From: Lysobacterales bacterium
Lineage (GTDB): Bacteria; Pseudomonadota; Gammaproteobacteria; Xanthomonadales; SZUA-36
Assembly: GCA_014238945.1 (NCBI GenBank)
Contig: JABAAB010000047.1
Location: forward strand, 1-64,000
Length of the DNA stretch: 64,000 bases
Reading direction: 5' to 3'
Position numbers and translations under genes: made by a program. Below, in pieces: positions 57,512-64,000 of the stretch; position 1 is the stretch's first letter, and each line of letters begins with the position of its first letter. The notes beneath the pieces are model-generated. The model saw nothing but the letters and a program-made list of their open reading frames with translations. It was not told the origin of the DNA and did not search any database.

Positions 57512-59197
57512 ATGCTCAACCATCTTCACATCAGTAATTTTGCCATCGTACCAACACTGGACCTTGATTTTCGTCAAGGATTCACCGCCATCACGGGTGA
57601 AACCGGTGCCGGGAAGTCCATCCTGGTAGATGCTCTTGGTCTGTTGCTCGGTAGCCGGTCTGACGCTGAATGGGTACGTCCGGGTGCAGCACGGGCAGAA
57701 TTGACCGCCGAATTTTCATTACAAAATAACAGGCAGGCCAGGAAATGGCTGGAACAAACCGAACTGGCCGACGGTAGCTGTTGCCTGCTGCGTCGAACCA
57801 TCACCGCCGGAGGTCGCTCCCGTGCCTTTATCAATGGCACCCCCGTGACGGTGGGTCAGTTGCAGACCCTGGGACAAATGCTGGTCGAAATTCATGGCCA
57901 GAATGAGTTCCTGCGCCTGACAAAATCCGCCCAACAATTACTCCTGCTGGATGATAGTGGAGATTACCAGGACAAACTGGTAGCAGTCCGTTCAATTTAC
58001 GCACAGTGGAAATCAGTCGGCGAGCAACTTAAAGCACTCGATCGGGAGTTGCCGACATCGTCCAACGACCTTGATTTCCTCAAGTTTCAGCTTACTGAAC
58101 TGGCGCAACATGATGTTTCCAAAAGATCGATCGATAAGCTGCAAAAAGAACATGACCGCCTGGCCGCAGGTGAGGCCTTGCTGATGGCGCTCAATACCGG
58201 TATCGGTCAGCTTGAGCCCGATTCACCCAATGGTGATACAGGAGTGAACTCCCGGCTCAATACCATGCTCACGCAATTACAGTCCTTCACTCACCTCGAT
58301 GACGACATCAGCAACGCCTGCCAGATGTTGACAGAGGCAGCGGTGAATTGCGATGAGGCACTAACCACACTGCGTGCCGCAAGGGAAAGTGCGGATTTGG
58401 ACCCTCTCCGTTTTGAATCCGTGGCCAACCGTCTCAGCCAAATTCACGAACTGGCACGTAAGCACGGCGTTAATATGGATGAACTCGATGGGGTCATTCA
58501 AAATCTGAAACAGCGCATACAACTGGCCAGCAGTACCCGCCAGCGACGCATGCAATTAGAACAGGAATTGACCGCACACCTGGAACAATACCGCGTTGTT
58601 TCAAGCAATTTGGGCCGCCTGCGTATTGCACAGGCGGCCATCCTGTCGACAGGGGTCACCCAATTGATGGCAGAACTCGGTATGAAGGGTGGTGTTTTTG
58701 AATTACTGGTTTCCCCCGATCCGACGCGACCACCTGCGACCAGTGGCGATGACGTCATTCAGATTAACATCAGCGCCACACCCGGTATGCCACCGGGTCC
58801 GCTCAACAAAATTGCATCTGGTGGTGAATTGTCCAGGATCAGCCTCGCTATCAAAGTCGCGTCCAGTGACAGAAACACAGCGGTGACACAAATCTTTGAT
58901 GAAGTGGATGCCGGGATAGGTGGTGACACTGCCAATTCCGTAGGGCGCTTATTGAACCGTTTGTCAGAACACGGCCAGGTATTGTGTGTCACCCACCTGG
59001 CCCAGGTCGCCGTTTGCGCAGACCATCAACTGCAGGTAATTAAAGCCTCAAGCCGGGTGGCGGCAAGGGTCGACACCCGGGTGCTGGACGAGAAAGACCG
59101 GGTGGATGAGATAGCGCGTATGCTCAGTGGACGATTATCTGAACAATCCCGGGCACACGCTCAGGAATTGCTCAGTGCAGCAAACGCGACCGACTGA
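57512..59197 (+). CDS. recN: DNA repair protein RecN
   Basis: RecN is an SMC-like ATPase that acts early in double-strand break repair. The 561-residue protein has the N-terminal Walker A GETGAGKSIL, a coiled-coil middle, and the C-terminal signature ASGGELSRISLAIK with the Walker B IFDEVDAGIGGDTA. I see no LexA box (CTGT-N8-ACAG) in the 168-base upstream region, although recN is often SOS-controlled. It ends 2 bases from the converging fur stop. Confidence 0.96.
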   Translation: MLNHLHISNFAIVPTLDLDFRQGFTAITGETGAGKSILVDALGLLLGSRSDAEWVRPGAARAELTAEFSLQNNRQARKWLEQTELADGSCCLLRRTITAGGRSRAFINGTPVTVGQLQTLGQMLVEIHGQNEFLRLTKSAQQLLLLDDSGDYQDKLVAVRSIYAQWKSVGEQLKALDRELPTSSNDLDFLKFQLTELAQHDVSKRSIDKLQKEHDRLAAGEALLMALNTGIGQLEPDSPNGDTGVNSRLNTMLTQLQSFTHLDDDISNACQMLTEAAVNCDEALTTLRAARESADLDPLRFESVANRLSQIHELARKHGVNMDELDGVIQNLKQRIQLASSTRQRRMQLEQELTAHLEQYRVVSSNLGRLRIAQAAILSTGVTQLMAELGMKGGVFELLVSPDPTRPPATSGDDVIQINISATPGMPPGPLNKIASGGELSRISLAIKVASSDRNTAVTQIFDEVDAGIGGDTANSVGRLLNRLSEHGQVLCVTHLAQVAVCADHQLQVIKASSRVAARVDTRVLDEKDRVDEIARMLSGRLSEQSRAHAQELLSAANATD

Positions 59198-59199
59198 TA

Positions 59200-59607
59200 T
59201 CAATCCTTTTTGAGGGGTCGAACATAGATAACCAGGCTGTGGTCTTCGATTTCATATCCATGTTCGGCCGCGATTTTCGACTGCAAATCTTCAATTTCGC
59301 TATTGACGAATTCGGTTACCTTGCCGGTTTCGACACACACCATGTGGTCGTGGTGGCTACCTGAATCCAGTTCGTAATATGCCTGCCCACCCTCGAAGTT
59401 GTGTTTGACCACCAAACCCGCTGCTTCGAACTGATGCAACACGCGATAGACCGTGGCGAGCCCGATGTCTTCACCTGCCTGCATCAGTACCCGGTAGATG
59501 TCATCTGCCGTGACATGTTCATTGCCGGTCTCATCCAGAAGCTCAAGAATTCGTTTCCTGGGCTGGGTAACTTTCAATCCAGCTTTTCTGAGATTATGCG
59601 TATCCAT
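59200..59607 (-). CDS. fur: Ferric uptake regulator Fur
   Basis: Fur is the Fe2+-dependent repressor of iron acquisition. The 135-residue protein has the winged-helix (ATVYRVLHQFEAAGLV) and the metal-binding GSHHDHMVCVETGKV block with HHDH. The second cysteine of the E. coli CxxC structural site is Thr here, as in Pseudomonas Fur. It is divergent from the bamE-type gene, the usual gammaproteobacterial arrangement. Confidence 0.96.
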   Translation of the reverse strand: MDTHNLRKAGLKVTQPRKRILELLDETGNEHVTADDIYRVLMQAGEDIGLATVYRVLHQFEAAGLVVKHNFEGGQAYYELDSGSHHDHMVCVETGKVTEFVNSEIEDLQSKIAAEHGYEIEDHSLVIYVRPLKKD

Positions 59608-59714
59608 ACCGGTTCCTGTGAAATTTAATTTGCATGCGTGGTTTTTCAGGGATGCGGACTATTGTATCATTCACGCCCTTGATCTTTTGTATCAGCAATC
59701 GCTGAAGGAACCAC

Positions 59715-60386
59715 ATGACCAGGTATTTGTTCATAGCCCTGTTGACCACCCTGACGATAACTTCGGGCTGCCAACTGATATACAAACAGAATGTCCAACA
59801 GGGTAATGCTCATGTACAGGAGGACCTTGACCAGGTGGAACTGGGAATGAGCAAGACACAGGTCGCATTCCTGCTCGGTACCCCTGCCATTCATGACCCA
59901 TTTCACCAGGACCGATGGGATTATATCTCCATGTTCAGTCGTCGTGGCAATGAACAGGCACGACGCCTGGTAACACTGACGTTCAAGGATGATGTACTGG
60001 TCGCCACCGATGGCATTGGTGATTCAGCCGGAGGTGATATCAAGGCCCTCGAGGACACCAAGGCAGCGGTTGCAAACATCGATGACATTGCCACCGCCAG
60101 AGAGACGGTACTGGTAACCGAGGATGGGGTCATACACTGGACCGTGCAACTGGGTGCTTTTTCTACGCATGCCAAGGCTGCGGAATTGGCCTTGGAGGCA
60201 GACAGAAATGGTTATCCCGCGGTAATTGAAGAACGGGTGGTGCCCGGACTGGGTACGCGATTCCAGGTGCGCTCGGGTCAATTTGACACATTCAATGATG
60301 CCCAGGCGGCACTGGGTGGCATGGAAGACGATTTGGATGTGGCAGCTTTTACCGTACCAATCAAGGCACTAAACAACGACGGATAG
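59715..60386 (+). CDS. bamE: BamE-like outer-membrane lipoprotein fused to a SPOR domain
   Basis: BamE is a lipoprotein of the BAM complex that inserts outer-membrane proteins. The signal peptide ends in a lipobox with Cys19 (TSGC). Residues 20-100 match BamE: IYKQNVQQGN, VELGMSKTQVAFLLGTP, DPFHQDRWDY and LTLTFKDD. After an Ala/Asp-rich linker (about 101-138), residues 141-216 form a SPOR domain (HWTVQLGAFSTHAKAAELALE ... FQVRSGQFDTFNDAQ), a fold that binds denuded peptidoglycan at the septum. At 223 residues it is about twice the usual BamE length. The fur neighbour is the standard bamE context. Confidence 0.9.
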   Translation: MTRYLFIALLTTLTITSGCQLIYKQNVQQGNAHVQEDLDQVELGMSKTQVAFLLGTPAIHDPFHQDRWDYISMFSRRGNEQARRLVTLTFKDDVLVATDGIGDSAGGDIKALEDTKAAVANIDDIATARETVLVTEDGVIHWTVQLGAFSTHAKAAELALEADRNGYPAVIEERVVPGLGTRFQVRSGQFDTFNDAQAALGGMEDDLDVAAFTVPIKALNNDG

Positions 60387-60390
60387 TCCT

Positions 60391-60732
60391 TTATACAGAA
60401 CCTGGTCGGGATCTTCCTTTGCCGCTGTTCCCGGCTGCCTGCCTCAGGGCACGTTGCCTGCGGACCTCTTTCGGATCGGCGATCAAGGGCCGGTAAATCT
60501 CAACCCGGTCACCATCGGCAAGAACCTGGTCTATTGCCACCCTTTGTCCAAAGATTCCCACCTGTTTTGGATCTGGCTCAAAACCATCAAAACGATCCAG
60601 AATTCCGGACCGGGTTATCGCATCGGCCAGTGTCGAACCGGCCTCCAGTACCACTGTTACCAGTTCCTGTTGTTCCGGCATTGCCAGCACAACTTCAATG
60701 TTAATATGTTCGTTTCCGGTATTATTGCTCAT
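60391..60732 (-). CDS. RnfH/RatB-family ubiquitin-like protein
   Basis: The 113-residue protein belongs to the RnfH family (beta-grasp fold), which pairs with RatA. It has IEVVLAMPEQQELV, the VGIFGQRV strand and the conserved end DGDRVEIYRPLIADPKEVRRQRA. The function is not firmly known. It abuts ratA with no gap and lies opposite smpB, the conserved order. It converges on the bamE gene with a 4-base gap. Confidence 0.9.
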   Translation of the reverse strand: MSNNTGNEHINIEVVLAMPEQQELVTVVLEAGSTLADAITRSGILDRFDGFEPDPKQVGIFGQRVAIDQVLADGDRVEIYRPLIADPKEVRRQRALRQAAGNSGKGRSRPGSV

Positions 60733-61161
60733 TCAGGTGTAAACCTTATCCGCCTGTTTGCAAAATTCATCAACCAACTGGTCTGCTATGCGACCAAACC
60801 CCTTGCCAAACAACGCAGCCTCCAGACCGCTGCTCAATTCAAATTCCAATTTTAGCTGCACCTTTGAGCCATCTTCACCCAGTTGCTTGAAATACCACTC
60901 TCCCCGGAGTGTATTGAACGGACCGTCCAGCAGTTTCATGATGACGCTACTACCGCGGTCGAGTTCATTTAAGGTGGTAAATTGCTGCTGAATTCCGGCA
61001 ACAGAAATGGCCAGGGATGCTCGTTGGGTATCGCCGTTTTGTTCATGCACCGTGGCCCTGGTACACCAGGATAAAAAGTCCGGGTAAGAAGAAACGTCTT
61101 CGACCAGCCGGTACATGTCCATGGCAGTATGGGCCACCAGTGCTGATCGTTCTATTTTCAT
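60733..61161 (-). CDS. ratA: RatA-type START-fold protein
   Basis: RatA is a START/polyketide-cyclase-fold protein; in E. coli overproduction blocks 70S formation, while relatives act with coenzyme Q (Coq10-like). The 142-residue product has YRLVEDVSSYPDFLSWC, DGPFNTLRGEWYF and LEFELSSGLEAALFGKGF. I use ATG 61161; an ATG 15 bases upstream is equally possible as the ribosome site is weak. Confidence 0.9.
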   Translation of the reverse strand: MKIERSALVAHTAMDMYRLVEDVSSYPDFLSWCTRATVHEQNGDTQRASLAISVAGIQQQFTTLNELDRGSSVIMKLLDGPFNTLRGEWYFKQLGEDGSKVQLKLEFELSSGLEAALFGKGFGRIADQLVDEFCKQADKVYT

Positions 61162-61258
61162 ACCCGTACTGACCATTCGCAGAGCATTCACCAAGTACAA
61201 AATTTTACACGATTAGCCCCGCAGGCAGTAGAATACCCCGCTGGCAGGATGACAGAAT

Positions 61259-61720
61259 ATGAACAACACGGGATCCAAAACAATTGCGCGTAACAAACGC
61301 GCCCGCTTTGAGTACTTTATTGAAGAGCGGATCGAAGCAGGTTTGAGTCTGCAGGGCTGGGAGGTCAAGTCATTGCGCGATGCACGCGTGCAGTTTGCGG
61401 ACAGTTACGTCCTTTTAAAAGACCACGAGGCCTTCCTGTTTGGCTGTCGAATTGACCCCCTGCCAACCGCTTCCACACATTTCACACCCGACCCCGTGCG
61501 CACCCGCAAGTTGTTGCTGCACCGTCGGGAGATCAACCGCCTGGCCAGCCTGGTGGACCGCAAGGGTTATTCTGTCGTGCCAACGGCACTATACTGGTCC
61601 AGGGGCAAGGCCAAGGTAGAGATCGGTCTTGCCCGGGGCAAGAAAATGCACGACAAACGCAAAGTCGAGAAAGACCGCGACTGGAAACGCCAAAAAGCCC
61701 GTATTCTGAAACACGGCTGA
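61259..61720 (+). CDS. smpB: SsrA-binding protein SmpB
   Basis: SmpB carries tmRNA to stalled ribosomes. The 153-residue protein has [34 protein letters not shown], and the basic C-terminal tail [16 protein letters not shown] that reaches the mRNA channel. No tmRNA gene is in the window. It faces ratA-rnfH in the conserved arrangement. Confidence 0.97.
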
Positions 61721-63191: not shown

Positions 63192-64000
63192 TCATGACAG
63201 GAATCTGGCAATTTCATCCGCAAACCGGCGGGTCATCTGATCTGAAACCAGCGTCTGTGACATATCACCCAGGGCCGGTGTCTTGTTCATGTCAAAAAGA
63301 TGAACCTCCCCATCCACCTGGGTGTAATCAAAGCGGCCGTAGTCAAAGCCCGCGGCGTTTCGCGCTTCCCGCAGTACTTCGGGAACCTGGTCGGACACCC
63401 CTCTGGATGTAGATGTGGACCCTTTGACTACGGGCACCGGCGCAGCAAACCAGGTCAACGATTCCTGTTCGCCAAAGAAAAGGTAACAACGGTGCAGATA
63501 GTCACCATTTTCTGTCCGTTCTGGCAGAAATTTTTCAACAATCAATTTTTTATTCTTCCAAACACCATTAGGAACATATTGTATGCTATTGAATATAGGA
63601 TAGTTATATGAATCCAATGTTTCACGTTTTCGCCAGGGCCGTTCGACATCTCTTGACTCTGAAATCGACTTTCCAGCATATAAACTTATGCCATGCTCGA
63701 TGACTCCTCCGTAATTGGCATCGGTCTTGACTATGACTTTTCCCGCATAGGAATCACCCCTTTTCAACAAATTCTTACTGATTACCGACTTTGAAATGTC
63801 CTTCACACCCCCATTGATCGCTACCGGATAACGTGAAGCCAGGTCCAGGTACTCGGTATCCACCACGGTGGTGTCAACATGGACAAAGGCGATATCAGCC
63901 GGAATGTAATGCGGACCGGCAGTCACCTGCACTTGGATGCCCTGCTGTTGCCATACCTCCATAAGTTTAGCCAGGTAGTAGCGGCTGCCCAGTATCTCAT
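63192..64000 (-). CDS. ATP-grasp-like protein, 5' end beyond the window
   Basis: The visible 268 or so residues resemble ATP-grasp ligases: VIVKTDANYGG (a nucleotide-binding Lys and glycine loop), LIVEKFLPE, and the acidic C-terminal FDMNKTPALGD, where Asp and Asn would bind metal. The frame stays open to the window edge with coding-like sequence (GSRYYLAKLMEVW) upstream of the ATG at 63962, so that ATG is probably internal. Substrate is unknown. The centre of the gene (about 63560-63680) is clearly more AT-rich than its neighbours. It converges on the symporter. Confidence 0.7.
   Translation of the reverse strand, partial: EILGSRYYLAKLMEVWQQQGIQVQVTAGPHYIPADIAFVHVDTTVVDTEYLDLASRYPVAINGGVKDISKSVISKNLLKRGDSYAGKVIVKTDANYGGVIEHGISLYAGKSISESRDVERPWRKRETLDSYNYPIFNSIQYVPNGVWKNKKLIVEKFLPERTENGDYLHRCYLFFGEQESLTWFAAPVPVVKGSTSTSRGVSDQVPEVLREARNAAGFDYGRFDYTQVDGEVHLFDMNKTPALGDMSQTLVSDQMTRRFADEIARFLS

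Follow-up and report, generated by a model that had tools for sequence, protein, structure and literature searches.

A BamE lipoprotein with a SPOR domain in a Lysobacterales genome and its relatives, and its possible role at the division site

How Gram-negative cells match the growth of the outer membrane to the division of the wall is an open question. Work on Escherichia coli ties the activity or position of the barrel assembly machinery (BAM) to wall growth and division, and leaves a direct recruiting signal open (PMC9242858, PMC8620860). The question is raised by one gene in the stretch of DNA analysed here (the window: 64,000 nucleotides, positions 1 to 64,000 of contig JABAAB010000047.1 in the assembly GCA_014238945.1 of a Lysobacterales bacterium). 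From the letters of this stretch, an earlier note had read a BAM lipoprotein, BamE, joined in a single frame to a SPOR domain. If this reading holds, both domains should be recognisable in one uninterrupted protein.

We found one uninterrupted frame at 59715-60386 of the forward strand, running from an ATG at 59715 to a TAG that ends at 60386 and encoding 223 amino acids (aa). Frame, strand and coordinates had been read correctly, and a Pfam profile search detected BamE and SPOR in this one protein, both significant, with no third family above cut-off. No stop lies between the domains, and the frame is open there in relatives too. The gene and its parts are as follows.

59715..60386, forward strand: BamE-SPOR fusion gene, 223 aa, a single open frame with stop TAG and Pfam matches to BamE and SPOR
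59705..59709, forward strand: AAGGA, a likely ribosome-binding site by direct sequence reading
59715..59771, forward strand: signal peptide by sequence reading, residues 1-19, ending in TSGC19, the predicted lipidation site, with Q20 next
59802..60005, forward strand: BamE domain, residues 30-97 (Pfam expectation value, E, 1.5e-21)
60015..60134, forward strand: linker, residues 101-140, the stretch separating both domains
60135..60365, forward strand: SPOR domain, residues 141-217

To judge the first part, we compared it with known BamE proteins. Residues 30-97 matched PF04355 (BamE) with 76.4 bits against a curated cut-off of 23.2 (E 1.5e-21). Searched against solved structures, the sequence found BamE chains (best E 9.5e-15), and the predicted structure of this part resembles BamE in solved BAM complexes. 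The signal reads as that of a lipoprotein (TSGC19-Q20, no Asp after the Cys), and C19 is kept in 15 of 15 aligned proteins. A search of the assembly (4.85 Mb in 126 contigs, completeness 97.96, contamination 0.95) returned the fusion gene as its sole BamE match. The same assembly holds BamA, as a frame with five POTRA domains, and a BamD-family gene; BamC was not detected in it. Homology, conserved gene order and single copy thus argue from sequence for a predicted place in BAM, as the earlier note had supposed.

The second part gave a significant SPOR match, with 37.3 bits against a gathering score of 21 (PF05036, E 3.5e-9), over residues 141-200 and profile positions 4-61 of 76. Comparison with solved structures gave a weak sequence match to the CwlC SPOR domain (E 0.0065). 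The predicted structure matches the RlpA SPOR domain that was solved with denuded glycan, and the model has the ribonucleoprotein (RNP)-like fold of known SPOR domains. A structural register that sets fusion residue 141 on RlpA residue 266 placed the following positions, the roles of RlpA Q270, L307, R309 and R311 being taken from PMC6895207.

60147..60149, forward strand: Q145, by structural register the equivalent of RlpA Q270, a glycan contact in RlpA
60258..60272, forward strand: codons 182-186, with R182, Q184 and R186 by structural register the equivalents of RlpA L307, R309 and R311

The glycan-contact Gln equivalent to Q145 is kept in 20 of the 20 fused proteins described below, all of which also have at least one patch arginine. 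Within the window's genus, Q145, A148, F149, R182 and R186 are invariant (10 of 10 proteins). In the basic patch R186 is retained, R182 takes the L307 position, and P177 and Q184 stand for R302 and R309. Known SPOR patches vary in which basic residues they use (PMC6895207). Predicted structure and structural register therefore support a SPOR fold with most of its glycan-contact positions.

We then surveyed the fusion across genomes. The family-level group comprises 39 genomes, 36 with a BamE match; 36 frames from 35 genomes could be judged, since one (L059, genome G462) runs off its contig and genome G418 gave two. G472 also has a weak second match to BamE, which stands outside the 36. Pfam detected SPOR in 20 of the 36 frames. 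Six of 14 genera are fused, and one is unassigned in this respect. By alignment and motif check, the fused genomes are all ten of the window's genus, all six of genus g223 and one each of g227, g228, g231 and g232. The linker measures 40 aa in the window's genus and 45-47 aa in g223; in g227, g228, g231 and g232 it spans 83-117 aa. The fusion recurs in 20 genomes whose gene order agrees, within contig limits, and this rules out a chance or assembly artefact as its source. As an observation on the unfused frames of sister genera, 11 of 16 have an acidic tail closing in PDIDG (L055-L058, L061-L063, L065, L068, L069 and L072).

Protein searches extended this picture. With the fusion as query, 681 proteins matched at E <= 1e-3, and all of the best 120 had both Pfam domains (one of them, P0002, is the window's own protein). 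A profile built from fused proteins gave 1974 matches, the best 120 of which included 119 with both domains; the remaining one, P0270, ends within a SPOR-like stretch. The single g227 protein as query returned both domains in 11 of 96. One match, P0265, with the source name Marinihelvus fidelis, has exactly the sequence of L052 from g223; the species is validly named and stands in a notification list (PMC12453557). Other named fused relatives are metagenome assemblies labelled Lysobacterales, Xanthomonadales, Oceanospirillales or Gammaproteobacteria. Source annotations call the fused proteins mostly BamE and once DedD. Two longer proteins, P0082 (386 aa) and P0256 (389 aa, labelled DedD by one source), join BamE-SPOR to a second SPOR, detected by Pfam in P0082 and by reading in P0256.

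At E 0.01, no SPOR was detected in 97 further, mostly non-family BamE frames (29 loci of a class search and 68 of 80 named loci, the remaining 12 named loci being fused). The 97 include no fewer than three unfused frames of the window's own family (L086-L088) and one frame truncated by the end of its contig (L120). A class-wide fusion was likewise not seen: with the window's protein as query, matches came from 249 of the 274 genomes of the class, and among the matches listed the SPOR part was covered in the window's own genome alone. A search with one protein misses diverged SPOR parts, so that the Pfam scan counts fusions more fairly. Unsampled lineages may hold others. A different C-terminal extension of BamE, the NTF2-like Cds6_C domain, occurs in 8 of the 97 frames; its likely bearers are of Methylophilaceae type with 460-537 aa (L103, L109, L111, L114, L115, L120, L127 and L133). 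These long-tailed proteins were ruled out as further fusions, their tails being NTF2-like and not SPOR.

What could such a protein do? In known members the SPOR ligand is made by amidases and enriched at septa (PMC6895207), and the assembly encodes one Amidase_3 protein, so that the enzyme class making the ligand exists in this genome. We consider the fusion, the only BamE found in the assembly, to be a predicted BAM subunit that would bind amidase-stripped septal glycan and, on balance, would probably concentrate the insertion of outer membrane proteins (OMPs) at the division site. Its lipid anchor would set BamE beneath the outer membrane, and the BamE domain would dock on BamA and BamD in the fashion of E. 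coli. The 40-residue linker would give the SPOR domain reach to the wall, where amidases would generate its ligand at septa, and BAM would thereby be retained at the septum while the daughter cells separate. A SPOR domain on BamE would, we propose, let BAM attach directly to the septal amidase product.

In E. coli, BAM subunits bind peptidoglycan, BamE in vitro among them; mature, tetrapeptide-rich wall suppresses BAM, and insertion is strongest at division sites (PMC9242858). Cross-links to the wall in cells were obtained for BamA and BamC, and not for BamB or BamE (PMC9242858). We tentatively suggest that the fusion may wire BAM to denuded septal glycan through a subunit of its own: the amidase product would call OMP insertion to the septum as a built-in positive address, whereas in E. 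coli mature wall switches BAM off elsewhere. This version of the proposal is the more doubtful of the two.

Several observations weigh against the proposed role. In E. coli, BAM was seen at midcell both when bamE was deleted and when FtsN was absent (PMC8620860), and BamA was seen evenly spread with only its activity localised (PMC9242858); on these findings, neither wall recruitment nor SPOR is needed there. Sixteen unfused frames, from 15 genomes in seven genera, belong to the same family. The fusion protein (55.5) and its M. fidelis counterpart (58.5) both score below the naming cut-off of 93 of NF008585, the NCBIfam BamE equivalog. The BamE half of the window protein is weakly modelled (blocks of 53-73 in predicted local distance difference test, pLDDT), and predicted template modelling (pTM) scores of 0.53 and 0.46 mean that the relative placement and orientation of the domains are not predicted with confidence. 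In the SPOR part, P177 and Q184 stand where RlpA has R302 and R309, two of its three patch arginines, and the net charge is acidic (-6). The ratio of nonsynonymous to synonymous polymorphism (pN/pS), with synonymous sites saturated, is 0.115 for BamE, 0.364 for the linker and 0.319 for SPOR, which thus evolves nearly at linker speed and is under only mild constraint over the domain as a whole.

Among other explanations, the best placed is a general tether, in which SPOR would mainly serve, like Pal or OmpA, as a mechanical link from BAM and the outer membrane to the wall and leave the insertion site unsteered. Known tethers share the plan of an outer-membrane lipoprotein with a wall-binding domain, Caulobacter BAM has an ancillary Pal (PMC3359395), and some relatives have two SPOR domains (two stretches in P0082, for example). 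The known SPOR ligand, septum-enriched and amidase-made (PMC6895207), suits a local tether better, and we regard a general one as unlikely. Less likely again is a SPOR domain that no longer binds denuded glycan and has turned into a spacer or a protein-binding domain. The lost arginines, the acidic charge and the near-linker pN/pS would fit such a change; against it stand the five residues invariant throughout the genus, the Gln kept in all 20 fused proteins and the differing basic residues of known SPOR patches (PMC6895207). Finally, an anchor of the TpgA type, whose BamE fold would bind a trimeric autotransporter barrel instead of BamA while the C-terminal domain held the wall, is very improbable, given that the protein reaches 11.6 with the NCBIfam TpgA model NF047726, and its M. 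fidelis counterpart 19.4, where the cut-off is 350, that the fusion is the genome's only BamE and lies in conserved bamE gene order, that no autotransporter or adhesin was found among eight neighbouring frames scanned, and that Pfam gives SPOR and no OmpA family.

Returning to the fusion as a predicted septal BAM subunit, we examined its history with a tree built from the BamE domain alone (90 columns, fused and unfused rows). A modestly supported branch (88/71) set off 19 of the 20 fused rows; L070 stood separate on a long branch. When the outgroups were left out, the well-supported branches required two changes, and 1% of bootstrap trees showed a single change. The approximately unbiased (AU) test did not reject one fused clade (p 0.088 with outgroups, 0.105 without). 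There may have been one gain with losses, or two gains; both are compatible with the tree results. The SPOR part matched elsewhere in eight family genomes, in five of them within a two-SPOR DedD-like protein at 33-39% identity, a sequence likeness only suggestive of descent from such a protein.

A link of the fusion to loss of BamC found no support: BamC was undetected throughout the two main fused genera (10 and 6 genomes), yet also in 10 of 15 genomes with unfused BamE, and two fused genomes gave weak BamC matches. Across the 39 family-level genomes, BamC (PF06804) was undetected in 30 and weak in 9. The composition of BAM may vary within the group.

The gene order by Pfam is GrpE, RecN, Fur, fusion, RnfH, RatA-like, SmpB. 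The flanking genes are alike around fused and unfused bamE of relatives, within contig limits. Those in the window nearest to the fusion are listed here; for the fourth, the name ratA is our presumption from gene position.

57512..59197, forward strand: recN (Pfam SMC_N, RecF/RecN/SMC)
59200..59607, reverse strand: fur-family gene (Pfam FUR, E 4.6e-44)
60391..60732, reverse strand: rnfH (Pfam Ub-RnfH)
60733..61200, reverse strand: ratA-like gene (Pfam Polyketide_cyc)
61259..61720, forward strand: smpB (Pfam SmpB, E 1.4e-56)

Besides the fusion, a genome search gave five further SPOR matches in the assembly. One lies in an FtsN-like gene next to argS (both named by reading), one in an RlpA-type gene that includes the transglycosylase domain, and two in a DedD-like gene (DedD by reading) split by a frame change. 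The fifth, in a Sel1-repeat protein, was marginal and did not recur in the Pfam scan at E 1e-3. The split gene (L001:1459-2373, reverse strand, contig C82) has two SPOR domains, and a break inside the first leaves two frames, 174 and 123 aa long; the gene is unbroken in the five relatives examined, and the split is either a real mutation or an assembly error. Elsewhere in the window, a 256-aa frame on the reverse strand (63192-63962) adjoins a sodium:solute symporter gene. It has only weak PHROG matches, with no Pfam match at 1e-3 and no NCBIfam match at 0.1.

We found no description of a BamE-SPOR fusion in the open-licence literature searched (most subscription papers lie outside that scope), and the available parts of PMC9239104, PMC12419801 and PMC8620860 describe none, in agreement with the earlier note, which knew of no described role. 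BamE and SPOR are each known; as far as these searches go, their pairing inside BAM is undescribed in the open literature. If the proposed role is true, this little-known gammaproteobacterial group would probably couple outer-membrane building to cell division through the fusion. A natural BamE with a predicted reader of denuded glycan, present in some genera, among them that of the species M. fidelis, and absent from their sisters, is a ready-made experiment on septal BAM.

How does the protein compare with known systems? Relative to BamE (SmpA/OmlA) of the E. coli and Neisseria gonorrhoeae BAM, it adds a linker and SPOR, reaching 223 aa against the 113 positions of the NCBIfam BamE model. 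Like RlpA of Pseudomonas aeruginosa (structures 6i05 and 6i09), it is a lipoprotein with a C-terminal SPOR and has the contact Gln, Ala and Phe in the same register. RlpA differs in having a lytic transglycosylase domain and no BamE, and the fusion has Pro and Gln for R302 and R309; the window's genome also encodes a separate RlpA-type gene. The wall-binding domain of TpgA is OmpA-like and not SPOR, with the adhesin gene adjoining. TpgA serves an adhesin. It shares with the fusion an N-terminal domain of BamE-like fold (9vnj_B), and a peptidoglycan-binding domain fixes TpgA to the wall (PMC13082670). The Legionella type II secretin LspD is likewise part of an outer-membrane machine with a SPOR of its own (PMC9239104). 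It is a secretin and not a BAM protein, and its SPOR lies near the N terminus. The lipoprotein Pal binds the cell wall. PMC9242858 agrees on this point, and in Caulobacter Pal is found with BAM (PMC3359395), there as a separate protein, neither fused nor SPOR, whereas in the protein described here BamE and SPOR form a single chain.
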